Source of the DNA: Candidatus Hydrogenedentota bacterium
GTDB taxonomy: Bacteria > Hydrogenedentota > Hydrogenedentia > Hydrogenedentales > CAITNO01
Assembly (NCBI GenBank): GCA_903893795.1
Contig: CAITNO010000110.1
Coordinates: forward strand, 1 to 64,000
Length of the DNA: 64,000 nt
Direction of reading: 5' to 3'
Part shown: in pieces, positions 13,296 through 57,031 of the stretch
Layout: every line of letters starts with the position of its first letter
Position numbering within the stretch: the stretch's first letter is position 1
Translations under genes and position numbers: made by a program
Notes under the pieces: generated by a model
Database searches by the model: none
The model's input: only the letters and a program-made list of their open reading frames with translations
Told to the model about the DNA's origin: nothing

Positions 13296-13300
13296 AGCAT

Positions 13301-14068: not shown

Positions 14069-14074
14069 AGCGCC

Positions 14075-16036: not shown

Positions 16037-16698
16037 ACAGCGGGCAAGGCATGTGCGTCCGAGTGGTGTTGGCGGACGACCACAAGATTATGCGGGAGGG
16101 GCTGTGCAGTCTGCTGCGCAACGATCCCCGCGTGGAGATCGTCGGCGTGGCGGAGGACGGCCGCAGTGCCGTGCAACTCGCCCGGGAACTGAAGCCGGAT
16201 GTCGTTGTGATGGATGTCGCCATGCCCGACCTGAACGGGATTGAGGCGTCGCGCAAGATCAAGGCCGAATTGCCCGACGTGCGCATTCTGGCCCTGTCCA
16301 TGCACTCCGACAAGCGGTACATATCGAATATGCTTCAGGCCGGCGCCTCCGGCTACCTGCTCAAGGATTGCGCCTTCAAAGAACTCGTCCAGGCAATTCA
16401 CACGGTTGCCCGGCGCCAGGTTTATCTGAGCCCGAGCATCGCCGCTCTCGTGACCGAGGACTACGTCCGCCAGTTGATGACCAGGGACGCCTCACCTGCG
16501 GCGGTGCTCAGCCCAAAAGAGCGCGAGGTGCTTCAACTGATGGCCGAAGGCCACAGCACCAAACAGATTGCGGCCACCCTGAACCTGAGTGTGAAAACCA
16601 TTGAAACGCACCGGCAGCAGGTAATGGAGAAGCTTGACCTCCACAGCGTTGCCGAACTGACCAAATTCGCCGTGCGTGAAGGCTTGACATCTCTCTAA
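16033..16698 (+). CDS. NarL/FixJ-family response regulator (REC-LuxR HTH)
   Basis: 221 residues. Receiver domain (about 5-122) with VLADDHKIMREGL, phospho-acceptor in VVMDVAMPDLNG and Lys in LLKD, then a LuxR-type helix-turn-helix (about 155-215; LSPKEREVLQLMAEGHSTKQIA, VKTIETHR). It should bind DNA as a dimer after phosphorylation. The overlap with the HisKA_3 kinase marks that kinase as its partner. It closes a four-gene operon beginning at 7629. The receiver is strikingly similar to the N-terminal receiver of the hybrid kinase at 17174 (LNGIEA, ILALSMHS, MLQAGASGYLLKD). Confidence 0.93.
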   Translation: MNSGQGMCVRVVLADDHKIMREGLCSLLRNDPRVEIVGVAEDGRSAVQLARELKPDVVVMDVAMPDLNGIEASRKIKAELPDVRILALSMHSDKRYISNMLQAGASGYLLKDCAFKELVQAIHTVARRQVYLSPSIAALVTEDYVRQLMTRDASPAAVLSPKEREVLQLMAEGHSTKQIAATLNLSVKTIETHRQQVMEKLDLHSVAELTKFAVREGLTSL

Positions 16699-17173
16699 CA
16701 CCCCTTCCGACCCGTTCTTGAGGCGATCCGCACTTATTGTGTGTGAAACACATTCTTCAGGCGCGAGGCTCCGCGTGACGCTTCGTGAAATGGTCCGAGT
16801 ACGGGGGGTGGTTCCACATTGGGTTTGATCCGCCTGCTGGACGTTGGCGGGGAGTTCATGCCTGTCCCATAAGCACTTGCCGGTGCACATTACCATTGCG
16901 GGCAGCCTGAACCTGGTTACGGCTTGCCATTTTGGGGGTTATTCCCACAATTCGCTCGACATATGGCCTCAATCTAAGGGAAATGGAAGGGCAGAATCAG
17001 GGAATACCCTATTTCAGTCTCACCCACCTTGGGTCATAATTACTTCAGTAAGTACAGGTGCCTTTCGGCGAATGGAATGCGCCGATGCACCAGCGAGAAA
17101 AGTTGAGGTAATAGAACAGGGGGCTGCGCGCAGGCCATTAGGGCTGCGCACGCCGTACAAAGGGAGCGGTGAC
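16699..17173. other. Intergenic region between the LuxR regulator and the hybrid kinase
   Basis: No gene recognised, although the kinase frame stays open upstream to about 16844 without RBS or sensible protein. A small hairpin with TGTGT / ACACA lies near 16738-16752 and may help end the first operon. AT-rich stretches near 16930-17060 are likely promoter territory for the kinase. No clear operator is seen. Confidence 0.4.
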
Positions 17174-20143: not shown

Positions 20144-20210
20144 CGACTGTAACCGTCGGAAATGCTTGGGAAATCCCGTTCCCAGGCAATCCGACACCAA
20201 GGAAAAGACC

Positions 20211-21422
20211 ATGTATACGAATTGCACCGAGCCGACCGGAATCCTTGGCCTGGCTTCCTGGACAGGCGGCGCCGTGGTTGCGGCACCCAAAAGGTTGCTC
20301 TTTGTTGACGATGACCCGAGCATACTCGACATGCTGGAGCGCATGATTGCGCCGCATGCCGCCGGTTGGCAGACGTTTTTTTGCCTTGGTGCGGAAGAGG
20401 CCATGACCATGGTCGAACAGGTCGATTTTGACGCTATCGTTTCCGACGCCCGCATGCCCGGAAGGGACGGATTCTGGCTCTTGAAGACGCTTCAGGATTC
20501 GGAACGCACCCGGAACATACCGGTGATACTACTGACGGGTGACTGTGAGCCCAGCCTCAAGCGCCAGGCGCTTGAAATGGGCGCGACGGACCTGCTGAAC
20601 AAACCCATCTGCCGCGAGGACCTGCTGGGGCGGCTGCGCAGCGCGCTGCGCCTGAAGGCATCCCAGGATGAACTGGCCGCGCACATAATATCGTTGGAAA
20701 ACAATGTCCGCGAACGGACCCAGGCGCTTGAAACCTCCCACCGCGAGATCGTCTGGCGGCTCGCCAAGGCCTGCGAATACCGCGACGACGAGACGGGCCA
20801 GCACGTGATGCGCGTGGCCTTCTATTCGCGCGCCATTGCGGTGGGCCTGGGTATGAGCCCTGATTTTGTCGAGGAAATATTCCTGACCAGCCCCCTTCAC
20901 GACATCGGCAAGATTGCCATGCCGGACCGGGTGTTCCTGAAGCCGGGTTCCCTCACCCCGGAGGAAATGAGGGTTATGCGGAGCCATTGCGAGGTCGGAG
21001 CGCGGCTCCTGCTCGAACGACCCCAGGCGCTGGCCTTGTTTCACGGGGATGGATTTGACAGGGAGGAGTTCTTTGGCGACGGGGACGAAAACCCCTTCAT
21101 CAAGATGGCTTCGCGCATCGCCCTTGGCCATCATGAGAAATGGGATGGGACGGGGTACCCCGGCGGACTTGCAGGCAGGGCCATTCCAATGGAAAGCAGG
21201 ATAGTGGCGCTTGCCGACGTCTTTGACGCGCTGGTCACGGAAAGGCCCTACAAGCCGGCGTTCTCCCTGGAAAAATCGTTGGGAATACTCGCGACCGAGG
21301 CCGGACACCATTTTGACCCGGAGGTATGCAGCGCCTTCAACGCGAAAATAGACGAAATAGAAAGCATTCGCCGTCGCTTCCTCGAAACACCTTACCACGT
21401 GTGCATTGAAAATGCCCGGTGA
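20211..21422 (+). CDS. Response regulator with HD-GYP domain (probable c-di-GMP phosphodiesterase)
   Basis: About 403 residues. ATG 20211 follows AAGGA. Receiver (about 25-145; FVDDDPS, phospho-acceptor in AIVSDARMPGRDG, LNKP), a short coiled-coil linker, then HD-GYP (about 165-385) with HDIGKI near 229 and HHEKWDGTGYPGGL near 307. These are the metal- and substrate-site signatures of HD-GYP phosphodiesterases that hydrolyse cyclic di-GMP. An insertion between the HD and HH elements (GDGFDREEFFGDGDENPF) is slightly longer than usual. It follows the hybrid kinase by 67 nt and is likely cotranscribed, so that kinase is a plausible phosphodonor. Confidence 0.9.
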   Translation: MYTNCTEPTGILGLASWTGGAVVAAPKRLLFVDDDPSILDMLERMIAPHAAGWQTFFCLGAEEAMTMVEQVDFDAIVSDARMPGRDGFWLLKTLQDSERTRNIPVILLTGDCEPSLKRQALEMGATDLLNKPICREDLLGRLRSALRLKASQDELAAHIISLENNVRERTQALETSHREIVWRLAKACEYRDDETGQHVMRVAFYSRAIAVGLGMSPDFVEEIFLTSPLHDIGKIAMPDRVFLKPGSLTPEEMRVMRSHCEVGARLLLERPQALALFHGDGFDREEFFGDGDENPFIKMASRIALGHHEKWDGTGYPGGLAGRAIPMESRIVALADVFDALVTERPYKPAFSLEKSLGILATEAGHHFDPEVCSAFNAKIDEIESIRRRFLETPYHVCIENAR

Positions 21423-22261: not shown

Positions 22262-22291
22262 GCGGCCCGGAGTCGGTTGACTCCGGGCCGC
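22262..22291. terminator. Bidirectional terminator hairpin between convergent units
   Basis: Perfect 13-bp stem (22262-22274 with 22279-22291) and GGTT loop. On the minus strand it is followed by a T-rich stretch (22240-22261). It lies between the plus-strand signalling block (ends 22155) and the minus-strand decahaem cytochrome (ends 22314), so it can serve both. Confidence 0.85.
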
Positions 22292-22313: not shown

Positions 22314-24860
22314 CTACGGGGTCAGCTTGTGCACCGTGGCGACCGCGAATTCTTTGCCGACACCGTGGCAAACGGCGCAGGCCTCGACGCCCTGGGCCGC
22401 GTCGGAGTTAGTCACGGCGTGGATGTCGGTGATCAGGCTGTCATGGCATGACGTGCAAGCGGCCCGCTCGGGCAGAATCGTCGTGGTGCTGCCATCGTCA
22501 TTCGCAATCAATGTCGGCATCGCCTCCGGAGCAAGCGGAAGGTCAACACTGTTCTTGCCGTGGCAGATGGCGCACTTCTGGCGCAGGCCGGGGAAGCGAA
22601 CCTCGTTGGCGACGAAGGAACCGACGCTGAACGGCCGATTCAGGTTTTCGCCCGTGTGGAACTTGTGCAGCATGTCCTTCAGGCTGATTTCGCCGGCGCT
22701 GGGATTGTGGCACATCTCGCAAACTTCCACGCCAAGGCGCGAACCGCCGTGGCCACGGATGGTTTCACCGTGGCACTTGGCGCACAGTGCGTCATCGACA
22801 ACAGTGCGGTGCGGCACCGGCGTGCTGCCGTCCACCGTGAAGAAGCGAATGCCGTTGTCCTTCAGGCCCTGCTCTTCCGTGTTGCCTTCACCGTCCACGA
22901 AGTCCACGCGGCCGGTCATTGCAACAGCGAAAGTGATGCCGGGCACATCGAGCGGCAGTTTCTTCTTGAAGATGTACTGGTATGCACCGGTCGGGCTGGT
23001 CGTGTTGACGAGCGTGCCCGTCGGTTTTCCGGCGACCCGGTTGATGGTTTCGTTCGAGTTTGTTGTGTACTCCGAAGCTGGCCAGGCAACAATTGCCCCG
23101 GCGCGGGCAATGGGAGTGATGTCGGTAATAGGCGTTCCGTCGCCGTTCTTGGCCAGGAAGTCGATAGTCAGCGTGCCGTCAGTCGGATCGACCGCGACAT
23201 TGGTGAGTTGCAGGTCAAGGCCGGGGTTTTCTGCAAGCTCCTCAACAGGAATGTGGTTGTCGGCTATTGGGGCGACGCCGGGACCGGACGGATTGTGGCA
23301 GGTGGCGCACTTGCTGTCGTCGGTCTGGGTGAAGTCGAGCGGGTGGTTGTGGAACCCGGCCGGGGTGGTGGTCGGGTCTGCAAACCAAGTGAGGTCATGG
23401 CAGGAGCCGCAGGCGGCCCTGCTGGGCTTGTTGAAGTAGTCCGCCTGTGCGTTTACTGACTTGTTCTCCGGACCGGCCACGTGGCAAATGTCGCAGGAGC
23501 GGATGTCCTGGGGCAATGTGACCGTCGAGTAGTCATTGATGGAGTTGCCGTAACCGATGATCTGGTAAGGCGTGCCAGCCACAACGCTGGGCAGGTTTAT
23601 ACCCATGTGAATCTTGTGGATAAACACCTTCATGTCCACGGTGTTGCCCGTGTCCGGGTCAGTGGTACCGGGATTGTGGCAGAGAATGCACAGTTTGACT
23701 TCGGTGCGGTTTCCGCCGTGCAGTCCCAGGCGGGTGTGGCAGTTGTTGCACTTCTCGGTGACGGTAACGTCGCGTGAAACGGCTACGGGGTTGCCGTCGG
23801 GGCGCCACTCGAAGATGGCATTGTTGGAGGGGTAGGTGAGCCCGTCCAGGGCCGAGAGGCGCGCAAGCTGCGAGCCCACCGCATGCGTGGCGGTCTTGCT
23901 GTAGTCGGCCGGAAGGGCAGTCTTGAATTTGTACGTGTAGGTTCCGTCGCTGTTCTGCTTCAAACCGGCGGGGCCTGCACCGTCATAGGTGGCCTGGGTG
24001 GCCTTGACGCTCGGGTCTGCGGCGGCGGCCACGGTCTTTGAGATATAGCTGATATACTGGGCGGAGTTCCCTGCGGGCGGGGCCTCGTCCAGATGGGCAA
24101 TGATGAACCGCACTTCGCTGAACTCAACGGGCGGAATGACGTCGCCGCGGTTGTTGGTGGCTGTGAAAGTGACTTCAGGCCTGAGGTCTTCGGGGATCAC
24201 AACGCCCGTGATGTTGGCTTTGAAGCCTGCAGGAATCAGGGGCGTGGTGCCGATGGTGCCGCCGGGGTTCAGCACCGAAATGGTGCTGTTGGCGGTGGCG
24301 CCGCTGTGGGAACCGGTGACCGTGATGGTGGCGACGCCGGCCGTAAGCGCGGTGGCGTTGATGCTGGCGCCGGTGGTGCCGCTCAGGCCCACAACCGCCG
24401 CGTTGGTGATGGTCCAGTTGAGCGTGTCAGTCGCATCGGTGGAACCGGCGCTCAGGCCAACCAACTGGCCGGTTTCAATCACAGCCGAAGCGGGCGTAAC
24501 GGTCAGCACCACGGGCTCGGGTTCCACAGCAACCGTGGGAACTGAGATGACCGCAGTGGCAGCACTCTTGCTCTTTGAACCCGTCACAGTGATGGTGGTT
24601 ACGCCGGGCGCGAGCGCCGTGACGGTCACAGACAACCCCGTCGTGGCATCAATGCTCGCCACCGCCGGGTTGCTGTTCGTCCACGTGAAGGGCGCATCGG
24701 CCGCGTCCGTGGATGACGCAGTGAGCGTCAGGTTCTGGTTGGCCTGCAGCGTAGCCGCCAAGGGGGTAACACTGACCACGCCGACGAGGGGGCATCCCGT
24801 AATGCACACAGCCACCAAGGCCAGCAACATCAACATTTTCACTCCGCGCAAACTCTTCAC
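22314..24860 (-). CDS. OmcA/MtrC-family decahaem c-type cytochrome lipoprotein
   Basis: About 848 residues. GTG 24860 is chosen: AGGAG lies 8 nt upstream and a lipoprotein signal follows at once (MLMLLALVAVCITGC). Two Big_2-like Ig domains follow (about 25-105 and 105-190; VSVTPLAATLQANQNLTLTA, LTVTPASAVIETG). The rest carries exactly ten CXXCH haem motifs: CNNCH, CILCH, CDICH, CGSCH, CATCH, CAKCH, CEMCH, CAICH, CTSCH, CAVCH. Ten haems with interspersed beta domains is the OmcA/MtrC design for outer-surface electron transfer. The N-terminal Big_2 pair may hold it away from the membrane. No MtrA/MtrB-type decahaem-porin pair is adjacent. It is the last gene of the cytochrome block, about 360 nt from the NapC/NirT gene and probably with its own promoter. 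Confidence 0.9.
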   Translation of the reverse strand: MKSLRGVKMLMLLALVAVCITGCPLVGVVSVTPLAATLQANQNLTLTASSTDAADAPFTWTNSNPAVASIDATTGLSVTVTALAPGVTTITVTGSKSKSAATAVISVPTVAVEPEPVVLTVTPASAVIETGQLVGLSAGSTDATDTLNWTITNAAVVGLSGTTGASINATALTAGVATITVTGSHSGATANSTISVLNPGGTIGTTPLIPAGFKANITGVVIPEDLRPEVTFTATNNRGDVIPPVEFSEVRFIIAHLDEAPPAGNSAQYISYISKTVAAAADPSVKATQATYDGAGPAGLKQNSDGTYTYKFKTALPADYSKTATHAVGSQLARLSALDGLTYPSNNAIFEWRPDGNPVAVSRDVTVTEKCNNCHTRLGLHGGNRTEVKLCILCHNPGTTDPDTGNTVDMKVFIHKIHMGINLPSVVAGTPYQIIGYGNSINDYSTVTLPQDIRSCDICHVAGPENKSVNAQADYFNKPSRAACGSCHDLTWFADPTTTPAGFHNHPLDFTQTDDSKCATCHNPSGPGVAPIADNHIPVEELAENPGLDLQLTNVAVDPTDGTLTIDFLAKNGDGTPITDITPIARAGAIVAWPASEYTTNSNETINRVAGKPTGTLVNTTSPTGAYQYIFKKKLPLDVPGITFAVAMTGRVDFVDGEGNTEEQGLKDNGIRFFTVDGSTPVPHRTVVDDALCAKCHGETIRGHGGSRLGVEVCEMCHNPSAGEISLKDMLHKFHTGENLNRPFSVGSFVANEVRFPGLRQKCAICHGKNSVDLPLAPEAMPTLIANDDGSTTTILPERAACTSCHDSLITDIHAVTNSDAAQGVEACAVCHGVGKEFAVATVHKLTP

Positions 24861-25218
24861 AAGTATTTCTCCTGCTGTGTCGTTCCTAAGTCCGACAGTT
24901 TTGACATTCGCCACACGCACTAAGCTCTTATTGCTCTGCGGCACTTGCCGCAATCGCCTTTCACGTCTGCCAGCACTCTCCAATACTGCAGATTGCCTAG
25001 AAATACGCCATGATACGCCCAATTTGATGGCACGTAGACGAGTTCTAAGCATTATTCCCTGAGAGCATGCTTGAAGTATACCTGTTTACCGAACGTTAGG
25101 CATCCGTAGAAACAACTATAAAAGCAAAAGAGGTATCCGTAATAAATACGGACACCTCATGTAATGGCATTCATTTAGTGGGTTTGGCGCCCCGCAAATA
25201 ATGGCGGGGACCTAAGCC
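24861..25218. other. Intergenic region upstream of the decahaem cytochrome
   Basis: No gene seen. It holds a terminator hairpin of the upstream gene (25130-25158), a smaller stem CCCCGC/GCGGGG at 25190-25209, a 6-bp stem TGCGGC/GCCGCA at 24937-24952 in the likely leader of the cytochrome mRNA, and an ATCCGTA sequence at 25112-25118 similar to ones upstream of the Fe-S operon. The promoter of the decahaem gene should lie here, but no clear -35/-10 pair was found. Confidence 0.4.
25130..25158 (-). terminator. Terminator hairpin of the NapC/NirT-like cytochrome gene
   Basis: An 11-bp stem (25130-25140 with 25148-25158; one G-U pair in the minus-strand RNA) with a 7-nt AT loop. On the minus strand the U-rich run of 25120-25129 follows. 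Its core TCCGTA-N5-TACGGA also resembles a putative operator seen upstream of other cytochrome genes, so a double role is possible. Confidence 0.65.
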
Positions 25219-26649
25219 CTATAGACCCAATTGCTTCAACACCTCGGGATTGGTTTCATCCATGGCAAGCACACTATGGCAAGCATCACAGTCCTGACCG
25301 ACAGCTTTTCCGTCAGCATTCTTCAGGACATCGTCATGACACCGGAAACATCCGGGGAACTGTTCGTGGCCCAGATTGTTCGGGTGCGTTCCCCAGGTCA
25401 GATTCATCTTGGGGAAGACATTGCGTTTCCATATCGCCTGCAGTTCATGAATGGCCGTGTCCACCCGTTCAGGAGTGGACTTGACCAGGTCAGGATACTT
25501 GTCCTGATAGAAGGTGCGGACTTTCTGCGCAATCAGCTCCGGATCGCTTTCCTGACCCTTGGCCTCGGTCAACGTCTCCACGCCCAGCTTCTTGATGTAG
25601 GGGAGTGTGGCGTCTAGTTTACCGGTCTCCAGCGCCGCATCCACCTCCGTCACGGGCATTTTGAACACGTGTGAGGGCCGGTTGTGGCAGTCGATGCAGT
25701 CCATCTTCCGCTCCTCCGCATGGGCCAGAGCCTCGGGGGTGAAGACATCCTTGCCGGCACTGTAAACGGTCTCTTTGCCATCCTTTTGAACTATGCGCAC
25801 CTTGGAGATCTTCTGGCGCTTGGGATCGGGCGTGGTGTAGAAGGTCTGTTTGTCCGGACTGATGTGCCAACTGTGAATTCCCTTGCCCTGACCGCCGCCG
25901 CCCAGATGCATCAGCAGCACGGTCTTGGTGGGCGTGTTGGCCTCGTCATCCTGATAATGCGTGATGATCTTCACCCGGTCGCCCACGAACTTTTCAGGCC
26001 AGTGGCACTGCTCGCAAGTGTCGCGGGACGGACGCAGATTCTCCACCGGCGAGGGAATGGGTGTGGGGTAACTGTGCATGGCCACGGCGAGCACCTGGCC
26101 CAACCCGGAGATTTTCGACTTCACGAACCAGGAGGTTCCCGGTCCGATATGGCACTCAATGCAGCGCACCCGCAGATGGGGAGATCCCGTATAGGCCGTG
26201 TATTCCGGTTCCATCACGGAATGGCAGGTCTTTCCGCAGAATTCGGGCGAGTCCATGAACTGAAGACCCTGGTAGGAAACGGTGGCGAAAATAAGCAGAT
26301 TGAATGCGGTTAGAATCACCACGGTTGTCACAACATGACGCGTGTGGGGATTGTTGAAATCGAGGATGGGGAAGGGGGTGTCGGGCTTCTTGCCGTGGGA
26401 GCCGAACTTGTAGTCCCACAAAGCGCCCAGCGGCACCAGCAGCAGTCCGCCGACGAAGGAGCCCGGGAGCACCATGAACGCCAGAATGCCCACATAGGGG
26501 GAATCAACAAGACCCAGCGAACAGACGATCAGGCAACTGACGATGAGAAAGGCGCTTATCCCCGCCAGCATGGCACCGAGCAGGGTGAGCCAGTTCCGGC
26601 AAAAGAGCGTTGTCAAGGCCGCCAAAATCATGCGTTTCTTTCGTTCCAT
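25219..26649 (-). CDS. NapC/NirT-family membrane multihaem cytochrome (ImcH-like quinol dehydrogenase)
   Basis: 476 residues. The second of two adjacent ATGs (26649) is preferred, as AAGGA lies 7 nt upstream. The N-terminus carries three hydrophobic helices (about 15-45, 50-75, 100-125). A periplasmic domain follows with six haem motifs: CGKTCH, which is CX3CH rather than CXXCH, then CIECH, CEQCH, CIDCH, CFRCH and CDACH. The region after the third helix (FMDSPEFCGKTCHSVMEPEY) is the NapC/NirT quinol-oxidation signature. Three helices plus an enlarged haem domain resemble Geobacter ImcH, which moves electrons from menaquinol to the periplasm; ImcH itself is described with seven haems. Placed between the Ccs genes and the decahaem gene, it may feed periplasmic cytochromes. 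Confidence 0.85.
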   Translation of the reverse strand: MERKKRMILAALTTLFCRNWLTLLGAMLAGISAFLIVSCLIVCSLGLVDSPYVGILAFMVLPGSFVGGLLLVPLGALWDYKFGSHGKKPDTPFPILDFNNPHTRHVVTTVVILTAFNLLIFATVSYQGLQFMDSPEFCGKTCHSVMEPEYTAYTGSPHLRVRCIECHIGPGTSWFVKSKISGLGQVLAVAMHSYPTPIPSPVENLRPSRDTCEQCHWPEKFVGDRVKIITHYQDDEANTPTKTVLLMHLGGGGQGKGIHSWHISPDKQTFYTTPDPKRQKISKVRIVQKDGKETVYSAGKDVFTPEALAHAEERKMDCIDCHNRPSHVFKMPVTEVDAALETGKLDATLPYIKKLGVETLTEAKGQESDPELIAQKVRTFYQDKYPDLVKSTPERVDTAIHELQAIWKRNVFPKMNLTWGTHPNNLGHEQFPGCFRCHDDVLKNADGKAVGQDCDACHSVLAMDETNPEVLKQLGL

Positions 26650-26859
26650 CATTCCATCCTTTCGGCATGCCAGCCGCTTGGTTAACCAAAGGGGTCAGAC
26701 TGTAGCACCAACGGGCGCGTTTTTTCATCTTTTCACAGATCGCCCCGCCAGATACACTGCGTGACGCAAACGTTTGAAAATGCGGTCGGCATTTCTGCCA
26801 CATCCAAATCAGTCCAATGGATTTAAGACACTTCGGCGGAGTTGCCGACGCGCACTACC

Positions 26860-28806
26860 CTACCCTGCCTGCGGACGGGCACTTTTAACGTTGTGGTCAC
26901 GCAACCATGCGATGCAGCCCAGAAACACAATGGCCGTCTCAAATGCGTAGAAACCCACCAACGCCAAATGCGCCCCACTCGCAAAGCCATAACTGTGCAG
27001 TCCGACGCCAAGCATGTTGACACCGAACCACGAGAAGGCAATGACAATGCCGCCGATAATCGCGGCAATGTTGATTCCGAAGTCCCGCAGCATGCCGTCC
27101 ATTCTCGCGTGGAGAATGGCGAGCTGCCAGAGCACAATCATGAGCGCGCCGTTTTCCTTGGGGTCCCATCCCCAGAAACGGCCCCAGCTTTCGTTTGCCC
27201 AGATGCCGCCAAGCACCGTTCCCACGACGGAAAACACCAGGGCGAAGCAAAGGGAACCGTACACCATGCGGGTAAGTCCCCGGTAGAACTCCCTGTCATC
27301 GCGCCGCAGGCGGAAGAGCCGCCCCAGCACAAACACATGGGCCAACCCGCCCGACAGCAGTCCGGCCGCGTAGCCTATGGTGATAGTGGTCACATGGGTC
27401 GCCAGCCAGAAATTGGTGTCGAGCACGGCAACCATGCTCACCATGGTGTCGGAACCCTCGCGCACCTCGTATTTGTTGGCCAGGAACATGCCCGCCACGC
27501 CCAGAACCGAGGCGAGAGAAAGGGCCACCCGCTGGTGGTTCACCCATTCCATGAACAACGACACGGCCACGGCCACGGCGGTAACAAAGAGAATGGTTTC
27601 ATACAGCGTGGTGACCGGGGGCCTTTCACGGATGATGCAGCGGAGGACGATGCCGCAGGAGAGCAGCACGGTGGACAGGAGAATGGCGCCAAAAGAGGCG
27701 GCGGCCAGCATCTTGCTGGCGGGGCGCATCCACAGGCAGGCGACCAGAATGAAGCTGAGCACATAGAGCAGCAGGGCGTTGTAGAAAGGCTGCATCCGGT
27801 AGAGGAAGACCTCAAGGCCAATCTTGCCGTATTCACCGCGCGCCGTTGCCTGGGCACGCAACGAACCGTGAAGGGTGGCCGCCTGCTTCTTGAAGGCGTC
27901 CAGATTTGCCGTGCTGGAGGCGAGTTCCTCGAAATTCGCCAGCAGGTCCAATTGGGCGGCTGAAAGTATTTCCCCAGAGAAAGCGACTTGCACCATGTCG
28001 GCGGGAGAGTACCATTCAGCGTTGCCCGGTCCGGCCGGCGGCGGGAACAGCGCCAATTCCGTGGCGTCCACCGAAGCATCCTGCACTTCCTTGAGGAAAG
28101 CCGCAAAATCTTTCAATTCGGGGGCGGCCGCATCGGATTTTTTCTTCAAATCCATGTAAGCGGTGAAAAGTTGCGGAGCCTTGCGCAGCACTTCACTCAA
28201 CCGGCACTCGGCCTGGTTCGGGAAAAGGGCGGCCATTTCCTTGTGCTCCGTAAGGCTGAACTTCTTGCGGGCGCAGTCGGCAAAAGAAATAATCTCCTCA
28301 AACTCGCGCAGATTCATCCCCAACGCCATCAGCTCGGTTTCCATCACCGAGCGCTGCTGCTCATCCTTCTGCATGTACTGACGACCCAGCGTTATCAGCT
28401 TTTCATGCGCGGGTGACAGTTCAGCATAAGAATAATAGTCCCGCTTTTTCTTGGGCAGCAGGCCGATGGCAATGATGACCTCGTCATTGTCCACCCGGAA
28501 CACGTTGTATTCCTTCGCGGCATCGGGGTAGAAAATGCAATTCATGAACCAGGCCATGGGCGTAAGGCTCTTGCCTTCCGCATCGGGACAGCTTCGGCTG
28601 CCGTGAAATTTGAGCAGTTTGAACGCCGCAAAAGTGTCCAACGGCTTTACCCGGCCGTCATCCTGCACCGGCAGGGTGGAGAACAGGCTCAGGGTGTTCT
28701 TGTCCCACTGGGGCGGGGAGGGTGCCCGCTCCGCCGCGACCGCCCTGAAAGCGGACGTGAGAACTCCGGTAAATATCAGCGCCAGACAAATCACCTGCCG
28801 CATCAT
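26860..28806 (-). CDS. ccsA: Cytochrome c biogenesis protein CcsA/ResC with long N-terminal domain
   Basis: 648 residues. A signal-like N-terminus is followed by an extracytoplasmic domain of about 310 residues (starting with DDGRVKPLDTFAAFKLLKF, a motif also found in fused CcsBA proteins of Bacteroidetes). Then comes a C-terminal bundle of about eight helices with the tryptophan-rich haem-handling motif WGRFWGWDPKENGAL. This is the haem-exporting subunit of the system II maturation machinery, which attaches haem to CXXCH proteins outside the membrane. Its ATG overlaps the stop of the resB gene (ATGATG/TGA), so the two are cotranslated as usual for the Ccs complex. It should mature the 33 haem sites encoded in this block. 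Confidence 0.92.
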   Translation of the reverse strand: MMRQVICLALIFTGVLTSAFRAVAAERAPSPPQWDKNTLSLFSTLPVQDDGRVKPLDTFAAFKLLKFHGSRSCPDAEGKSLTPMAWFMNCIFYPDAAKEYNVFRVDNDEVIIAIGLLPKKKRDYYSYAELSPAHEKLITLGRQYMQKDEQQRSVMETELMALGMNLREFEEIISFADCARKKFSLTEHKEMAALFPNQAECRLSEVLRKAPQLFTAYMDLKKKSDAAAPELKDFAAFLKEVQDASVDATELALFPPPAGPGNAEWYSPADMVQVAFSGEILSAAQLDLLANFEELASSTANLDAFKKQAATLHGSLRAQATARGEYGKIGLEVFLYRMQPFYNALLLYVLSFILVACLWMRPASKMLAAASFGAILLSTVLLSCGIVLRCIIRERPPVTTLYETILFVTAVAVAVSLFMEWVNHQRVALSLASVLGVAGMFLANKYEVREGSDTMVSMVAVLDTNFWLATHVTTITIGYAAGLLSGGLAHVFVLGRLFRLRRDDREFYRGLTRMVYGSLCFALVFSVVGTVLGGIWANESWGRFWGWDPKENGALMIVLWQLAILHARMDGMLRDFGINIAAIIGGIVIAFSWFGVNMLGVGLHSYGFASGAHLALVGFYAFETAIVFLGCIAWLRDHNVKSARPQAG

Positions 28807-29954
28807 GACTTTTTCGCCTTTTCTTTTTTAAGGTATGCCAGCAAACGCTGCATGAAATGCAGCACCAGCCCGATTCCGGTGATGATGCAGGAATAAAGTG
28901 GTATCTGGTCCGCCGGATTGCGCACCACCGCAAAGACTGAATAGAAGGGGCCCTTGGCCGGACCGTTCTGCGGCCCCCAGGAGGACTGGTAGAAGGTGTA
29001 ACCCCGGTGGCGCAACGGCTCGTTCATGGTGATCCGAATTTCGCGCTCCGCCCCGTCTTCAATCTTGGTAACCTGACTGGAGTACTCGCGCGCCATGTTC
29101 GTGCGCGGGTGCAGTTCCCGTTTGAAATGGTCCAGACGCAGTGTAAACGGCAGTTTCCAGCGGTGCCTGCGCAACGCCAGGTTCCACTGCTTGCCTCCGG
29201 CCTCCACGGTCACCGGTGCGTTGTTTCCCGCCCAAAGCTGCGCTTCATGGGCGGCGCCGGACTGCTTTTCCAGCAGGGTGGCGGTGGCGCCGGACAGGTT
29301 TTGCTCCTGCTCCCGGTTCAGGGAAAGCTCGGTCAATTTCCCCGTGCCATGCGGGGCCGAAGCGGCTCCGTTGCCCATGGCCGCATTGGGCATGTAACCG
29401 CCAATCTTGAGATCAAAGGGAAGCGCTGAGAATTTGAAGGTTCTCGATTGGCCGTACGTGAGTCCGTCGAAGTCGGACTGGCGAATAATATACTCGGTGA
29501 CCGGGGCACCGGCGGAGGCTTCACCAACGCCGATTTCCCATTCATAGGAGGACTCAAACTCGTCGGAAGACTCGTTTTCGTACAGGGCCATGTGCCCTGA
29601 TTGGCAGAAGGCATAAGAGACAAACGAGCCTGCCAGCAGGGTTAGGATGCCGACATGGGCAATGAGAATGCCCACCTTTTTCCAAGACCAGCGGAACCGC
29701 ACCACCGCACCCCAGAGGAGGTTGACGAAGGTGACAATCATTACCAAATAGCCGCCCGGCAAAGGAATCGGCACAGAGCCAAAGCCCCAATGCACCACGA
29801 AAACAGATTCAAAATACTTCTGCTGACTCTGGTACAGGCCGTTCTCCACCTGGTTCATGGTTCCCAGGTAGGTCAGGAGCAGCAACAGCAGAAAGAGCAG
29901 ACAAGAGAGCTTGTATGACGCCAGGATGTTACTTATTCGCTTGAACACCGGCAT
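28803..29954 (-). CDS. resB: ResB/Ccs1-family cytochrome c biogenesis protein
   Basis: About 383 residues. ATG 29954 has GGGAGG 9 nt upstream and overlaps the end of the preceding lipoprotein gene by 26 nt. Transmembrane helices lie near the N-terminus (LSCLLFLLLLLLTYLG; YLVMIVTFVNLLWGAVV; VGILIAHVGILTLLAGSFVSYAF), followed by a large extracytoplasmic domain and a last helix (IPLYSCIITGIGLVLHFM). This is the ResB layout. ResB partners CcsA in system II apocytochrome chaperoning and haem ligation. The longer frame upstream (to 30011) lies within the preceding gene and lacks an RBS. Confidence 0.9.
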   Translation of the reverse strand: MPVFKRISNILASYKLSCLLFLLLLLLTYLGTMNQVENGLYQSQQKYFESVFVVHWGFGSVPIPLPGGYLVMIVTFVNLLWGAVVRFRWSWKKVGILIAHVGILTLLAGSFVSYAFCQSGHMALYENESSDEFESSYEWEIGVGEASAGAPVTEYIIRQSDFDGLTYGQSRTFKFSALPFDLKIGGYMPNAAMGNGAASAPHGTGKLTELSLNREQEQNLSGATATLLEKQSGAAHEAQLWAGNNAPVTVEAGGKQWNLALRRHRWKLPFTLRLDHFKRELHPRTNMAREYSSQVTKIEDGAEREIRITMNEPLRHRGYTFYQSSWGPQNGPAKGPFYSVFAVVRNPADQIPLYSCIITGIGLVLHFMQRLLAYLKKEKAKKS

Positions 29955-30639
29955 TGCCCGCGGCCTCCCCCTCATTCTGCTTTTCCTTGGCGGTGGCGTC
30001 GCCTGCGGCAACGGTGCTCGCGAGTGACTTGCAGAAGGACAGGAAATGTTCCTTTTCTGCCTTTATCACGGCGGCCGGGCCGGTCATCTTCACAAACAGG
30101 GTCTCTTCCGTCAGGGTGACCACCGTACCCAGAAGCGAATAGTCTGTGAACTGTTGTCCCGCCATTCCAGTGAAACTGCCGTTAATCTCGGCCAGCGGAG
30201 CGGGCTGCCCCAGCACGTCCACCTTGGGCAGTGCGGCGATCTCTTCCGGTTTCAGGTCGGCCTGGCCCATTTGACGGCTCCAACGATTGATGTTGGCATC
30301 AACGCCGCCGGCCGTCCCTTTGAGCAGGGTCAGGTAGCATTCGGCATCCGGGCTGGCCGCGATCTTGAAATTGCCAATGCGCATGGAGGTGGCCGGGGCT
30401 TCCGACCAGCCTTCGGGCACCTGCCACTTGTAGGGACTGACCGAGGGGTGGCCCGGAGGCAGCGTTCCATCGGCGGGGGGCATCTTCATCCCCATGTCAT
30501 GCCCTGCAGGCATGTCCTGCGCCGGCGCAGGCGCCGGAGGGGGCGCGGCAGTTCGGGTTTCGCTAATTTCCTTGGCGCCCTGACCTCCGCATCCCGCGAG
30601 TGCAAGCAACGCCACCAATACGACACTCAGTTTCCGCAT
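29929..30639 (-). CDS. Putative lipoprotein in the cytochrome maturation operon
   Basis: About 236 residues. ATG 30639 follows GGGAGA and starts a lipoprotein signal (MRKLSVVLVALLALAGC). A Pro/Ala- and Met/His-rich linker comes next (APAPAQDMPAGHDMGMKMPP), then a compact domain containing WKVPEGW-like text, MRIGNFKI, CYLTLLKG and INRWSRQMGQ. I do not recognise a named family. The Met/His cluster could bind copper or haem, but that is speculative. It overlaps resB, so a role in cytochrome assembly or the respiratory chain is likely from position alone. Confidence 0.7.
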   Translation of the reverse strand: MRKLSVVLVALLALAGCGGQGAKEISETRTAAPPPAPAPAQDMPAGHDMGMKMPPADGTLPPGHPSVSPYKWQVPEGWSEAPATSMRIGNFKIAASPDAECYLTLLKGTAGGVDANINRWSRQMGQADLKPEEIAALPKVDVLGQPAPLAEINGSFTGMAGQQFTDYSLLGTVVTLTEETLFVKMTGPAAVIKAEKEHFLSFCKSLASTVAAGDATAKEKQNEGEAAGNAGVQANK

Positions 30640-30669
30640 GTCCAATGAATCTCCCTGTTTAGAAAACAC

Positions 30670-30700
30670 GTGGAATGCCCCGCCGTACAGGGCATTCCAC
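30670..30700 (-). terminator. Terminator hairpin after the tetrahaem cytochrome gene
   Basis: Perfect 11-bp stem (30670-30680 with 30690-30700), 9-nt loop, followed on the minus strand by GTGTTTTCT. It separates the tetrahaem gene (ends 30737) from the lipoprotein-resB-ccsA unit (starts 30639). Confidence 0.8.
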
Positions 30701-30736
30701 GCAAGAAACAAATCTGCGGGTTAAATGTATTTCTTA

Positions 30737-31306
30737 CTACTTGGCCTTGGCCGGATTGTTGTGGTTGATCTTGGCGTACATCTTGTCGAAATCAAACACT
30801 TCGCCCGGCTTCGCAGTCGGGTTCTTCTCGTTGTGGCACTTCTTGCAGGTTTCCGCGTTGGGCTTCAGGATCTTCTTGGCGGGCTCGGCGGTCTTGTCGC
30901 CGCCCTTGAACTTCTTGCCTTCCGCCGTGTGGGCCGATGCCGGGCCGTGGCAGGCTTCGCACTGCACGCCGTCGGTCGGCTGGATCTTCTCGGGGCACTT
31001 GCCGGTGGCATCAGCCGCCGTGACGTGGCACTTGAGGCATTCCGGGGATTCGGCCGCCGGCTTGGTCAGGCCAGCCTTGGTGGCGACCTCCTTGGCCTTG
31101 TCGGTGGACAGCAGTTCCAGCGCCTTGGAATGGGCTTCCGCTTTCCACTTCGTCCACTGCTCGCCCTCTTCCTTCTTGTTATGGCAAATCTTGCACTGTG
31201 AATTGCCAACATAGGTCGCATCCTGGGCGACTGCCGCCGTCGTGAATGCGAACGCAACCACTGCTGCCAACAGGGCAGCTTTACACACCGACATCTTGTT
31301 GATCAT
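30737..31306 (-). CDS. Periplasmic tetrahaem cytochrome c, c554-like
   Basis: 189 residues. ATG 31306 has GAGGAG 8 nt upstream. A signal peptide (about 1-27, ending AVAQ) precedes a domain with four CXXCH motifs: CKICH, CLKCH, CEACH, CKKCH. The opening YVGNSQCKICHNKKEEGEQW, an AHSKALELL helix and GVQCEACHGPASAH match the cytochrome c554 family. It is probably a soluble periplasmic shuttle between inner-membrane quinol dehydrogenases and outer-membrane cytochromes or reductases. Own promoter (31367-31394) and own terminator, so it can be expressed separately, perhaps at high level. Confidence 0.88.
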   Translation of the reverse strand: MINKMSVCKAALLAAVVAFAFTTAAVAQDATYVGNSQCKICHNKKEEGEQWTKWKAEAHSKALELLSTDKAKEVATKAGLTKPAAESPECLKCHVTAADATGKCPEKIQPTDGVQCEACHGPASAHTAEGKKFKGGDKTAEPAKKILKPNAETCKKCHNEKNPTAKPGEVFDFDKMYAKINHNNPAKAK

Positions 31307-31366
31307 GAGCGAATCTCCTCAGTTCCGTGCCCACCCCGGGCACAAGCAGTTTGCCAAGTACCTCAC

Positions 31367-31394
31367 ATGGTACCACAGTTGTAACGAAAGTCAA
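31367..31394 (-). promoter_or_regulatory. Candidate sigma-70-type promoter of the tetrahaem cytochrome gene
   Basis: Read on the minus strand: TTGACT (31389-31394), 16-bp spacer, TACCAT (31367-31372), then a leader of about 60 nt to the ATG at 31306. The -35 matches the consensus at five of six positions, the -10 at four. CCGTAATAATAC (31414-31425), like a sequence upstream of other cytochrome genes, lies just upstream of the -35. Confidence 0.4.
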
Positions 31395-31562
31395 CCAAAA
31401 ACTTAAGACTTGACCGTAATAATACTCTCTTACCGCCCCTGCATCATCGGGAGAAAACGTGAGTTTACGCCCTGAAGCGTCCGTTAAAAGTACGTAATTC
31501 CCGTGGCTGAGTCAAGAAACAGCCCTTGGAGAGGGTCTAAGCTCCGCGTAGGACACGCAGGA

Positions 31563-32762
31563 CTATTTGGTTTCCACGGGTGCTTTCTCGTCAGACGGCG
31601 TTTCTGGGGCGGTCGAGGTGCGTTCCCCCGGCTGATCTTTCGGGTATTTGCGGTCATCGTGGCAGGCGGAGCAGTCCGGGGCTTCGCCCAATCCGTTTGG
31701 ATGGCAGGCCTCGCACTCGTTGTCCTTATGGGCCTCGCTGAAGACCAGACCGGTTTTTGTGTGGTCGAAGTCCTTGGAGGGGAACCAGTTGGCCTCGTGG
31801 CAGTCCTTGCAGTTCTTCTTGCCGAGGGCGAATTTGCCCTCCTTATGGCATTTTGTGCAGGCAAGCTGCTTGTGGAAGTCCTTGAGTTCGAAGACTGTGC
31901 TCTTGTTGTGGTCAAAAGTGCCGGTCTCATGGTCCTTGTGGCACTTCGCACAATTGTCCGAGGTGTCATGGCACTTGACGCAGTCCTCGTGGGAATCCTG
32001 GCGCACATGCTTTTGCGGACCTGCCGAGTCATGGCAGCGGCTGCAATTTTCCTTCTGGTGGCAGTCCGCACAGTGTTTGCCGAAAAGTTCGACGTGGTCC
32101 TTGTGGTGGAAGGTGACCATCGAACCGGCTTCCTGCTCCGGGGTGGGATAGACGGTTTTGTCCGGAACCGCCACATTGGGATGCAGTTTTCCCGTGATAT
32201 CGGTCGGGTCGGCATTGCCCTTGGATTCCGCCCCGGCGATGGCGCCGCGCTTGGCGTGGCAGAAGATGCAGTCGGTATCGTGGCTCCACTCGCGGTGGCA
32301 GGCCAGACACTGGCGGTGATAGGCGCCCTTGAGGCCGGGCCGTTGCAGATTGCCCGGATCGTTGGTTTTTTCATGGCAGGTGCGGCAGGTGACAATCTTG
32401 CCCTCTTCGCCGTGGTGGTGGCAGGCGGAGCATCCACTGCCGATCGCTTCCATCCCCGCGTGAAGTTTGTGGGGAAACACGACGGGGACGTACAGGTCGG
32501 TCAACTGGTCCATGATGACCACCTCGGGCTGTTCCGGGGTGGCCTCGTCGAGGTTCTCATTGGTGCGGGAACGGCGGCACTTGGCCGCGGGGAGCAGGTC
32601 GTCCGCGCTGGGATTGCTGGTCCGATGGCAGGGGGAGCAGTCGTTGCTCACATCGGTTTTTTGCGGTGCGGCCGGGGTACCTTCGGCCGGTTCCGGGAAA
32701 GCAGGCAGGCACAGCACCAGCGCCAGAAGGGTGAATATGGTCAGACGGCTCGTATTAAGCAT
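31563..32762 (-). CDS. Periplasmic 13-haem c-type cytochrome (class III/c7-like)
   Basis: About 399 residues. ATG 32762 lies just inside the end of the NrfD-like gene and begins a signal peptide (MLNTSRLTIFTLLALVLCLP). Thirteen CXXCH motifs are visible: CSPCH, CSACH, CRTCH, CLACH, CIFCH, CADCH, CSRCH, CVKCH, CAKCH, CTKCH, CKDCH, CEACH, CSACH. Spaced histidines such as FPHKLHAG and VTFHHKDHVELFGKHC fit bis-His class III (c3/c7) packing. The C-terminal end is charged and haem-free (PKDQPGERTSTAPETPSDEK). With the Tat Fe-S protein and NrfD-like protein upstream it makes a three-gene unit resembling Hmc-, Qrc- or Cbc-type quinone/cytochrome oxidoreductases. Confidence 0.88.
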   Translation of the reverse strand: MLNTSRLTIFTLLALVLCLPAFPEPAEGTPAAPQKTDVSNDCSPCHRTSNPSADDLLPAAKCRRSRTNENLDEATPEQPEVVIMDQLTDLYVPVVFPHKLHAGMEAIGSGCSACHHHGEEGKIVTCRTCHEKTNDPGNLQRPGLKGAYHRQCLACHREWSHDTDCIFCHAKRGAIAGAESKGNADPTDITGKLHPNVAVPDKTVYPTPEQEAGSMVTFHHKDHVELFGKHCADCHQKENCSRCHDSAGPQKHVRQDSHEDCVKCHDTSDNCAKCHKDHETGTFDHNKSTVFELKDFHKQLACTKCHKEGKFALGKKNCKDCHEANWFPSKDFDHTKTGLVFSEAHKDNECEACHPNGLGEAPDCSACHDDRKYPKDQPGERTSTAPETPSDEKAPVETK

Positions 32763-34023
32763 GGGATCCTGCCTGGGCGGGGCGCCGCTTCTTTGCAGTT
32801 TTGGCCTCCCCAAGGGTTTCGTGTTCCTCGACCGGCAACACCGGAAAGAGCGTAACGCAGACGCGATAGGCCAGAACAAGGGTGGCGACAAGGCCGACCG
32901 TCACAAGAATCTCGGGCACGCTGGGGAAATAGGGCGTTTGCGCATAGGGCGGCTTGAACGCCACAAGAAAGACGTTGATTCGGTTCAGTAGCACCCCGCC
33001 CACCACGAGGGCAGACGCGATTAGTAGTACCGCCGGAGAACGGCGTCCCTTTGCGGACAGCAGCAGCGCAAAAGGCAGCACAATGCCGAAGCCAATCTCG
33101 GCCAGGAACATGAAACTCGTGCCGTCGCCGGCGAAGGCACCGCCCCAGGCCTCGCGTATCATCAGGTCCGAGAGTCTGGCCACGCCGTAGACCCCCACGA
33201 AGAGCGCCACAAAGCGGCTGTAGGACGACAGGACAACTATCTCGGGTTTTCTTCGGAAGGTCCATGAGGCCAGCAGGGACTCGAAGACAACCATCGCAAA
33301 TCCGGCGGCAAAGGCCGACAGCAGGAACAGCAGCGGCATGATGGGCGTATACCACAGCGGACTCATTTTGTAGGGAACGATCAGCAGGAGCGAGCCGAGG
33401 GAAGACTGGTGCATGCACGAAAGCACCACGCCCGCCACGATGAAAAGAAACATTATTTTCGCGAGCGTGCCGTGCACCAACCGCAGCAGCGCGTCAATGG
33501 GCCGGTTGAGCGACTTCAGCGGTCCCGGCAGGTTCACGTGGCCGATAAAGCGCTCGCAGACAATGGGCATGAACTCGATGTACAGCACATTCAGATAGAC
33601 CGTGACGCACATGGCCACTTCGAAGAGCACCGAATTGCCCTGCCACATGGTCGGCCACAGGGGGTGCCAGATGTTGTAGTAGCGGCCCAGGTCGGCCATA
33701 AGGCCGATCACGGCGAAGGTGTAGCCGAGCATGGCCGTCAGCAGGGCCGGGCGCACCAGCACTTCGTACTTGTGCCGGTGAAATATGTGGGCAACCGCCG
33801 CGGAAGTGAATCCGCCCGCGGCCAGCGCCACGCCGGACGCGACATCCACGCCAATCCAGAGCCCCCAGGGGTACTGGTTGGTCAGATTGGTGGCCGCACC
33901 CAAACCGAACACGAAGCGGTAGGCAGCGGCGGCAAGACCGGCCAGCGCGATGCAGGACAGGATAAGCACACCGGGTGTCATGAGTCCGCGGCGCAGGGAA
34001 ACGGGCTGTGCGTGCTCGCTCAT
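32755..34023 (-). CDS. NrfD/HybB/PsrC-family quinone-interacting membrane subunit
   Basis: 422 residues with about ten transmembrane helices. The early YPWGLWIGVDVASGVALAAGGF is the NrfD/HybB family signature. ATG 34023 overlaps the Fe-S gene stop (ATGA) and has AAGGAGG 4 nt upstream. Family members bind (mena)quinone and pass electrons to or from a periplasmic Fe-S partner without haem. Between a Tat Fe-S protein and a 13-haem cytochrome it should couple the quinone pool to periplasmic cytochromes. The C-terminus extends into the cytochrome start by 8 nt. Confidence 0.9.
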   Translation of the reverse strand: MSEHAQPVSLRRGLMTPGVLILSCIALAGLAAAAYRFVFGLGAATNLTNQYPWGLWIGVDVASGVALAAGGFTSAAVAHIFHRHKYEVLVRPALLTAMLGYTFAVIGLMADLGRYYNIWHPLWPTMWQGNSVLFEVAMCVTVYLNVLYIEFMPIVCERFIGHVNLPGPLKSLNRPIDALLRLVHGTLAKIMFLFIVAGVVLSCMHQSSLGSLLLIVPYKMSPLWYTPIMPLLFLLSAFAAGFAMVVFESLLASWTFRRKPEIVVLSSYSRFVALFVGVYGVARLSDLMIREAWGGAFAGDGTSFMFLAEIGFGIVLPFALLLSAKGRRSPAVLLIASALVVGGVLLNRINVFLVAFKPPYAQTPYFPSVPEILVTVGLVATLVLAYRVCVTLFPVLPVEEHETLGEAKTAKKRRPAQAGSHA

Positions 34024-34892
34024 TTGTCCTCCTTGCTATCGAACATCTTCATGGCCACCGCCAGCAGCCCAAACAGGAGCATGGGGGGCACGCCGTGCTT
34101 AAAAATGCCATGCTGGAGCGGTTCGGTGTACTCGGGGATGGGTTTCTCCCCAAATTCCATGAGCCCCAGTTCGGTGACGGGGCGGCTGGTGAGGTAGAGC
34201 CAGGAGGTGCCCCCCAACTCATGTTCTCCGTACACATGGTCCAGATACTGTTCCGGATGGGCCTTTATTTTCGCCCGGGCCAAACCGAGCAGTTCGCTCC
34301 GCTTGGCAAAAGTGAGGCACATGGGCGGGCAAATATCCACGCAGGCGGGCGCTTTGCCGCCCTGGGACACGCGTTCGAAGCAGAAGGAGCATTTGCTCAC
34401 CTTGGGCGTGAGCGCATGGTCATATTCATAGGCGGGCACCTGGAAGGGGCAGGCCACCATGCAATAGCGGCAACCCATGCACTTCCAAGGGTCGTAGGTT
34501 ACAGCACCATTTGCCTGCGGGCGAATGGCGCCGACCAGACAGGCCGACGCGCAGGCCGGCTTGAGACAGTGCATGCACTGGGCCTTGACAAAGGTGGGTT
34601 TAACCGCCCCCGCCGTGTCGCCGTACCGGTTGACCACCGTATAGGCGTCGGCGGTCATGCGCCGTGGTTGGTCAAAAACGGACCTGTCCTCAAAGGCTTC
34701 CAAGGGAAGTTCCGTGAGCTTGTTGGATTGTGAACAGGCAAATTCGCACTTGCGGCAACCGATGCACTCGGTCGTGTCCACAAGAACGCCATAGCCCCCG
34801 ACCTCGTCCGCCGCAGCGAGGGCCGGTTCGGAGAGGGTCATGCCCGCCAGCCCGGCAACGCCCGCCCTGCAAAGAAACTGTCTTCTATCCAA
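34020..34892 (-). CDS. Tat-exported 4Fe-4S ferredoxin-type subunit with C-terminal anchor (HybA/HmcB-like)
   Basis: About 290 residues. Start uncertain: TTG 34892 gives MDRRQFLCRAGVAGLAG with GGGA 9 nt upstream, while GTG 34907 adds five residues. The RRQFL motif is a twin-arginine signal. Four Cys clusters bind [4Fe-4S] centres: CIGCRKCEFAC, CMHCLKPACASAC, CMGCRYCMVAC, and CSFC with CVDICPPMC. A C-terminal helix (PPMLLFGLLAVAM) resembles the HybA anchor. As first gene of a three-gene overlapping operon it should relay electrons between the NrfD-like subunit and the 13-haem cytochrome on the periplasmic side. Confidence 0.88.
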   Translation of the reverse strand: MDRRQFLCRAGVAGLAGMTLSEPALAAADEVGGYGVLVDTTECIGCRKCEFACSQSNKLTELPLEAFEDRSVFDQPRRMTADAYTVVNRYGDTAGAVKPTFVKAQCMHCLKPACASACLVGAIRPQANGAVTYDPWKCMGCRYCMVACPFQVPAYEYDHALTPKVSKCSFCFERVSQGGKAPACVDICPPMCLTFAKRSELLGLARAKIKAHPEQYLDHVYGEHELGGTSWLYLTSRPVTELGLMEFGEKPIPEYTEPLQHGIFKHGVPPMLLFGLLAVAMKMFDSKEDK

Positions 34893-34957
34893 TGTACTTA
34901 TTCCCACTCGGATGGGTCCTGTAATAAAAACGGATGTTACTCTAAATTGTACGGAAA

Positions 34958-38791: not shown

Positions 38792-38906
38792 GGCGGGCCT
38801 CCGGATGCTGCCGGGCACCCATCAGCCCGGCACGGATAAATATAGCACGAATGTCCATGGGGGCAATTGGAGAATCCAGAAGTCAGAATCTAAAATCCAG
38901 AAGAAA

Positions 38907-56821: not shown

Positions 56822-57031
56822 GACTGCCTCCTTGTTCAACGGCCCCATTTCGGGCCCATGCGCCCTTGACCGCGGCACTGAAACCCCAATTCTGTGGTGC
56901 CTGCCATCAATTATAAGGGCAGATCAGTATTTAGTCAACGGCAATAATAGAAAAAAGCAGAAAAAAGCCTCGGCGTGGCCGGATGCTTGCGTATCGCGGT
57001 AAGACGGCGCTTTGGTCCGATGGCGAACCGT

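Follow-up and report, generated by a model that had tools for sequence, protein, structure and literature searches.

A multihaem cytochrome gene cluster in a Candidatus Hydrogenedentota bacterium, probably part of an extracellular electron transfer chain with its outer-membrane conduit on another contig

The cytochrome gene cluster

How could a cluster of cytochrome genes carry electrons from the quinone pool to the cell surface without a recognisable outer-membrane porin gene of its own? The question is raised by nine minus-strand genes at positions 22314-34907 of a 64,000-nucleotide stretch of DNA (the window; contig CAITNO010000110.1 of assembly GCA_903893795.1) from a Candidatus Hydrogenedentota bacterium. 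The phylum is globally distributed and poorly understood (PMC11406978); our search of the published literature found no paper that joins Hydrogenedentes, multihaem cytochromes and extracellular electron transfer, and a survey of the phylum makes no mention of extracellular respiration by multihaem cytochromes. We conclude, with a probability of roughly three in four, that the cluster is the inner-membrane, periplasmic and surface part of an extracellular electron transfer chain whose outer-membrane conduit is encoded on another contig of the same genome (7.0 Mb in 159 contigs, 88% complete, 2.8% contaminated). From position 34907 down to 22314 the genes are as follows:

34020..34907, minus strand: Tat (twin-arginine translocation)-exported 4Fe-4S protein, HmcB/HybA/CbcT-like; twin-arginine sequence STLDRRQFL; HmcB 331 bits (cut-off 420), HybA 217 bits (cut-off 263)
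32755..34023, minus strand: NrfD-family integral membrane quinol oxidoreductase, HmcC/HybB-like, nine hydrophobic helices; PF03916 68.5 bits
31563..32762, minus strand: 13-haem periplasmic cytochrome c (class III / c7 type) with a signal peptide; 13 CXXCH; PF02085 61 bits
30737..31306, minus strand: four-haem periplasmic cytochrome of the c554 family; PF13435 58 bits
29929..30639, minus strand: lipoprotein conserved with ResB/CcsA; lipobox ALAGC
28803..29954, minus strand: ResB (System II cytochrome c maturation); PF05140 71 bits
26860..28806, minus strand: CcsA/CcsB (System II haem handling and ligation); PF01578 76 bits, TIGR03144 124 bits (cut-off 188)
25219..26652, minus strand: ImcH-type quinol oxidase, NapC/NirT domain, three transmembrane (TM) helices, one CX3CH and five CXXCH; PF03264 43 bits
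22314..24860, minus strand: OmcA/MtrC-family decahaem lipoprotein with an N-terminal Big_2 (immunoglobulin (Ig)-like) stalk; TIGR03507, PF22113 and PDB matches; lipobox ITGC

A preliminary description of this DNA had named eight of these genes, and all were found on the one strand; it had overlooked the conserved lipoprotein gene between c554 and ResB. Its total of 33 haem sites also stands, as 32 CXXCH plus one CX3CH: ten CXXCH in the decahaem protein, four in the tetrahaem protein, 13 in the 13-haem protein, and five with the single CX3CH in the ImcH/NapC protein, which had been credited simply with six. Shuffled versions of the same proteins contain on average 0.02-0.14 CXXCH and never more than 2, so a chance origin of these counts is excluded.

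A candidate outer-membrane conduit on another contig

The preliminary description had called the cluster self-contained and its outer-membrane step unusual or encoded elsewhere; the second statement was borne out and the first was not. A search of the source genome for MtrB/PioB porins (PF11854) gave a best score of 10.5 bits against a cut-off of 23, and no such porin was found in any of the 68 Hydrogenedentota genomes of our comparison set (0/68), so that none of them shows the barrel that marks an MtrCAB system. A pattern search for paired CXXCH motifs across the source genome located instead a candidate porin-cytochrome (Pcc) type trio on contig C32 (G000:C32, ~41.7-45.1 kb), where a 6-haem lipoprotein, a 543-amino acid (aa) haem-motif-free protein ending in F and a 14-haem lipoprotein are encoded on one strand. 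In most relatives this trio lies beside genes of the cluster.

Neither Pfam nor NCBIfam has a match for the middle protein, and a search of the sequences of solved structures with it gave only chance matches to ribosomal proteins. An AlphaFold2 model of a 79%-identical homologue has a signal helix followed by 22 strands, at moderate confidence (mean predicted local distance difference test value, pLDDT, 73; predicted template-modelling score 0.64), and the best 50 Foldseek matches of this model are all outer-membrane barrel proteins. The porin gene stands beside the 14-haem gene wherever the contig reaches, and the 14-haem protein keeps every one of its 14 CXXCH in each of the 14 sequences compared. 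Within NCBIfam the 6/8-haem protein comes closest to the MtrA/DmsE and GSU2203 families, at 57-82 bits, which is short of the cut-offs.

Known Pcc porins have 18-22 predicted strands, a range that includes the 22 predicted here, and a two-gene form in Anaeromyxobacter and Kuenenia consists of a porin and a 12-14-haem cytochrome of ~340 aa (PMC4245776). By description, then, the trio resembles the Pcc clusters in its three genes (Geobacter OmbB-OmaB-OmcB), its strand number and its multihaem partners, and its 14-haem protein is of the same ~340 aa as in Kuenenia and Anaeromyxobacter. It differs in haem content (6 or 8 haems and 14 haems, both proteins usually lipoproteins, in the order 6/8-haem, porin, 14-haem) and in being partnered with an OmcA/MtrC decahaem cytochrome.

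Is the association of this barrel with haem proteins peculiar to the phylum? Of 386 genomes scanned with the porin profile, ~318 come from outside the phylum, and 12 of these gave weak matches (E 1e-5 to 1e-16). At nine of these 12 distant loci there is a 10-14-haem cytochrome that the 14-haem profile recognises (E 1e-18 to 1e-64), and at a tenth (L156) an 11-haem gene unmatched by that profile stands beside the porin. Having emerged from the porin profile alone, this association with haem genes favours a reading of the barrel as part of a porin-cytochrome conduit. Nearly all porin relatives in named collections are labelled Candidatus Hydrogenedentes or Hydrogenedentota, the nearest at 79% identity; a match titled Nitrospiraceae (L083, JAACEL010000106.1) coincides with a contig within the phylum (G045:C157), is probably a labelling or binning issue, and was not taken as evidence of transfer.

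Two further features of the trio were seen. The 6/8-haem protein (L066:11341-12126, on G000:C32) and 15 homologues (alignment A3) have an invariant C-x-G-x-x-G-C-H-D (CX5CH) near the C-terminus, which may be an extra, atypical haem site; as of 2014 no such site had been seen in Pcc periplasmic cytochromes, and whether a CX>4CH motif binds haem was undetermined (PMC4245776). In G020 (L136:2-1288) the position upstream of porin and 14-haem genes is taken not by the 6/8-haem gene but by one for a 21-haem protein, whose start is lost at the edge of the contig.

Co-occurrence and linkage across the phylum

Among the 68 genomes OmcA/MtrC is present in 28 (27 of them, ~40% of the set, above the curated cut-off), the porin in 29 and ImcH in 30. 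OmcA/MtrC occurs together with the porin (Fisher p 2e-11) and with ImcH (p 2e-14); these values overstate the association, since genomes of one phylum are not independent, and physical linkage is independent of that difficulty. Of the 25 genomes with both porin and OmcA/MtrC, 15 have the two genes no more than 15 kb apart (gaps of 1.7-11 kb); for ImcH and OmcA/MtrC the same holds in 20 of 27, mostly at less than 1 kb. Loci fetched on OmcA/MtrC alone had the trio nearby. In G063 (L070) one same-strand run holds 8-haem, porin, 14-haem, c554, CcsA, lipoprotein, OmcA/MtrC and ImcH genes; in G048 (L133) and G031 (L047) the conduit continues into c554-ResB-CcsA; and in G014, of the window's own family, it shares the strand of OmcA/MtrC and lies ~11 kb further downstream. 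Comparison of gene order across related metagenome-assembled genomes (MAGs) thus found both synteny and a conduit, where the preliminary description would have counted the lack of either against its reading.

Each component is of a known kind; what is new, against the papers searched, is the combination in this phylum of OmcA/MtrC without MtrAB, ImcH and a Pcc-type conduit. That an Mtr-type head, the OmcA/MtrC decahaem protein, is fed by a Pcc-type trunk (6/8-haem protein, 22-strand barrel, 14-haem protein) throughout the phylum without MtrAB is a proposal on which we place even odds. The findings suggest that OmcA/MtrC heads work without MtrAB, and MtrB-based screens for extracellular respiration would therefore miss these genomes. 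The OmcA/MtrC carriers (27 of 68), tied as they are to ImcH and the Pcc-type conduit, are candidate metal- or electrode-respiring or electron-sharing bacteria.

The decahaem protein and the ImcH-type quinol oxidase

The preliminary description took the last gene to encode an OmcA/MtrC-type terminal cytochrome, and family membership is clear: the protein scores 414 bits against TIGR03507 (cut-off 209) over model positions 7-672, matches the MtrC/MtrF domain II/IV model PF22113 twice (174 bits), and finds MtrF (1e-35) and OmcA (2e-24) among PDB sequences. Its ten CXXCH fall into two pentahaem clusters (5+5), all conserved in nine homologues. The gene most likely starts at GTG 24860 and not at 25052, because AGGAG precedes that GTG and a proper lipoprotein signal results: a hydrophobic signal and the lipobox ITGC, then Big_2 Ig-like sequence and then the OmcA/MtrC part. 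With this lipobox and these domains the protein is a putative surface protein, and not one predicted to stay in the periplasm, which the preliminary description would have counted against its reading.

Shewanella homologues of this protein have disulfides. Outside CXXCH this protein has only the cysteine that carries the lipid and another within the signal, so disulfides of the Shewanella type are absent. The protein is otherwise like the Shewanella Mtr/Omc proteins (MtrC, MtrF and OmcA on MtrAB) in family, in its ten CXXCH in two pentahaem domains and in its lipobox. It differs in the Ig-like stalk ahead of the OmcA/MtrC domains, found also in G014 of the same family, in the genus mate G005, and in G003 and G031, and the surrounding systems differ in that none of the 68 genomes has an MtrB/PioB-type barrel and an ImcH-type protein replaces the CymA-type quinol oxidase.

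ImcH homologues have three N-terminal TM helices, one atypical CX3CH beside them and 5-9 CX2CH (PMC6295460). The NapC/NirT-type protein of the cluster has hydrophobic helices at 31-49, 54-72 and 107-125, then CX3CH as C139-GKT-C143-H144 (invariant in seven aligned homologues), and five CXXCH. Since it has all the published features, the NapC/NirT label, correct as a family domain, is made more exact by naming it, on its sequence, ImcH-type. Geobacter ImcH shares the three TM helices, the CX3CH by the membrane region, the NapC/NirT-like part and the multiple CX2CH, and differs in having six CX2CH in 495-519 aa, against five in 477 aa here. The quinol oxidase survey covers 12 phyla without mentioning Hydrogenedentes, and none of the imcH genes surveyed in 2018 was found adjacent to mtrAB (PMC6295460); the cluster's imcH, in contrast, is grouped with OmcA/MtrC and in relatives also with a Pcc-type porin.

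Proteins of 19 and 11 haems are encoded near OmcA/MtrC in two relatives (L049:15407-20000 in G048, L056:5564-10706 in G049). Those of L049 have C-terminal cytochrome b561/FdnI-like domains and resemble CbcL-like quinol oxidases, a further exit in some relatives.

The Fe-S/NrfD/13-haem module

The first three genes are tightly packed: Fe-S and NrfD share 4 bp, and the end of the NrfD gene is overlapped by the 13-haem gene, which starts at ATG 32762. Candidate assignments to an Hmc or Hyb complex were rejected because the scores fall short of the curated NCBIfam cut-offs; those for HmcB, HybA and HybB (364 bits, cut-off 450, for the last) reach ~80% of them, the NrfD-type protein scores 273 against HmcC (550), and the 13-haem protein 57.5 against HmcA (400). 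The gene order and overlaps fit an operon of the Cbc4 (CbcSTU) kind, with Fe-S, NrfD-type and multihaem c-type proteins and without a catalytic subunit. In composition (Tat Fe-S, NrfD-type, multihaem, no catalytic subunit) the module is like CbcSTU of Geobacter, SirCD of Shewanella and HmcABC of Desulfovibrio, and it differs from them in its 13 haems and in that HmcDEF genes are absent here.

Does this module belong to the same chain as ImcH and OmcA/MtrC? A search with the 13-haem protein found carriers in 15 of the 68 genomes, and in nine loci fetched from other genomes the 13-haem gene has the NrfD gene as a neighbour, and usually the Fe-S gene too. Most of these loci hold the module by itself (G002, G054, G043, G052, G047, G039, G051); among the nine, a junction with c554-lipoprotein-ResB(-CcsA) was seen in the genus mates G004 and G005 alone. 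The island is thus two modules joined in the window's genus, and of the two converging quinone exits claimed earlier there remain two candidate quinol exits, their convergence being a gene arrangement at the level of the genus. The module could then be a mere neighbour from another pathway, Hmc-like or linked to hydrogenase or formate and exchanging electrons between periplasm and quinone pool: in other families it has contigs of its own without ImcH-OmcA/MtrC genes, and it is absent from 14 of the 28 OmcA/MtrC genomes. This is the best-placed of the alternatives and still rather unlikely, as OmcA/MtrC is also present in 14 of the 15 module genomes (Fisher p 4e-6), and in Geobacter and Shewanella it is respiratory cytochromes that Fe-S/NrfD/cytochrome modules of the CbcSTU and SirCD kind feed (PMC11434368).

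In G004 (L113:6395-8597) the Fe-S gene is directly preceded by two candidate regulator genes, identified with Pfam as encoding a histidine kinase and a response regulator of the LuxR type; gene pairs of similar size stand beside the module or c554 in G005, G002, G047 and G014, and the window has no regulator/kinase pair at that position.

Proposed electron path and competing explanations

The genes, their families and haem motifs, their conserved linkage and their co-occurrence are direct observations; from the sequences we infer wiring, surface location, direction of flow and substrate as follows. At the inner membrane the ImcH-type cytochrome (25219-26652) would oxidise menaquinol, with the Fe-S/NrfD/13-haem complex as an alternative in the window's genus. 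The periplasmic tetrahaem c554 and 13-haem cytochromes would collect the electrons, which would cross the outer membrane through the Pcc-type conduit of 6-haem lipoprotein, 22-strand barrel and 14-haem lipoprotein (G000:C32, ~41.7-45.1 kb), and the lipid-anchored, Ig-stalked decahaem protein on the surface would reduce an acceptor outside the cell, whether a mineral or another. Haem attachment would be the task of ResB and CcsA.

Pcc and Mtr conduits are reversible in principle, and the chain might run inward, with Fe(II), a cathode or a partner cell as electron donor to the surface decahaem protein and the quinone pool as the destination. The source genome yielded no haem-copper oxidase and only a partial match to cytochrome bd, so outward flow is most likely; at 88% completeness these searches are not conclusive. 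The partial bd match itself speaks for inward flow, as does the Cyc2-based iron oxidation proposed for some Hydrogenedentota (PMC9769843). Against it, ImcH and modules of the CbcT/SirCD type are known above all for oxidising quinol in outward respiration (PMC6295460, PMC11434368), and the genome encodes polysaccharide degradation (for example an arabinofuranosidase at window 36863-38818), which fits an organotroph. We consider inward flow improbable.

Slightly less probable again is that the C32 conduit is a system apart from the cluster, the decahaem protein being charged by diffusing periplasmic cytochromes or through an unknown exit while the trio serves another acceptor. The two are on different contigs, a few genomes have only one of them, and G024 has two conduits and no full-length OmcA/MtrC; set against this are the strong co-occurrence, the close linkage in relatives with one shared same-strand run, and the lack of any alternative MtrB/PioB porin in the 68 genomes. 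Purely periplasmic respiration with no extracellular step (for example nitrogen or sulfur oxyanion reduction), in which c554 and NapC/NrfH-like domains also occur in the case of nitrogen, is very improbable, as the cluster has no catalytic reductase gene, its terminal protein is a full-length OmcA/MtrC-family lipoprotein, and a porin-cytochrome trio is linked to it.

Several points weigh against an outward chain through the C32 conduit. The contigs differ (97 kb for the conduit, 135 kb for the cluster), and since they are separate, cluster and conduit are not one operon in this genome. OmcA/MtrC occurs without a detectable porin in three genomes (G001, G042, G051) and the porin without OmcA/MtrC in four, some of these genomes being incomplete MAGs. 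The Foldseek TM-scores of the barrel are low (~0.3-0.5), with no MtrB entry among the 50 best matches, and an AlphaFold2 model of the 14-haem protein was unusable (pLDDT 53) and was not taken to a fold search. The predicted surface exposure of the decahaem protein derives from its family and lipobox, and the partial cytochrome bd match would allow some oxygen use.

Maturation genes, transcription signals and neighbouring genes

The CcsA/ResB pair is conserved with the cluster, in agreement with the earlier claim that the island has its own maturation genes, and is a dedicated set; it is not the sole one, because the source genome has three PF01578 genes, the cluster's CcsA among them. In relatives c554 is conserved beside the conduit or beside lipoprotein/ResB/CcsA. 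The lipoprotein has no Pfam domain except a sub-threshold lipoprotein motif, and its homologues hold the same position in relatives.

A single operon for the whole island was considered and rejected, because intergenic gaps of ~256, 207 and 358 bp and the following terminator-like stem-loops suggest more than one transcript; the count of terminator-like sites is near the shuffled background.

30667..30703, minus strand: terminator-like stem-loop in the gap between c554 and the lipoprotein gene; 17 pairs then TTTT; consensus match only
25130..25158, minus strand: terminator-like stem-loop in the gap between ImcH and OmcA/MtrC; 12 pairs then TTTTGCTTTT; consensus match only
22262..22291, minus strand: terminator-like stem-loop past the OmcA/MtrC gene; 13 pairs, 11 of them GC; consensus match only

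Just ahead of the cluster, on the opposite strand, is a run of sensor kinase and response regulator genes (window 7617-21422, plus strand). On the minus strand, the protein encoded at window 43382-46489 is 1035 aa long; besides two CXXCH it has an FGE-sulfatase domain and the middle domain of hydrazine synthase alpha (PF18582, 2e-33). Window 54827-61292, also on the minus strand, encodes three adjoining ~670-aa proteins with a common N-terminal WAWMKGS.. sequence, probably tandem paralogues. Elsewhere in the genome, G000:C31:31.9-37.3 kb and G000:C51 encode 13-haem proteins of large size, called at 1798 and 1325 aa, with a CcsA gene close to each; one 60-base stretch, found at the end of C31 and again at either end of C51, suggests an assembly repeat or a duplication.

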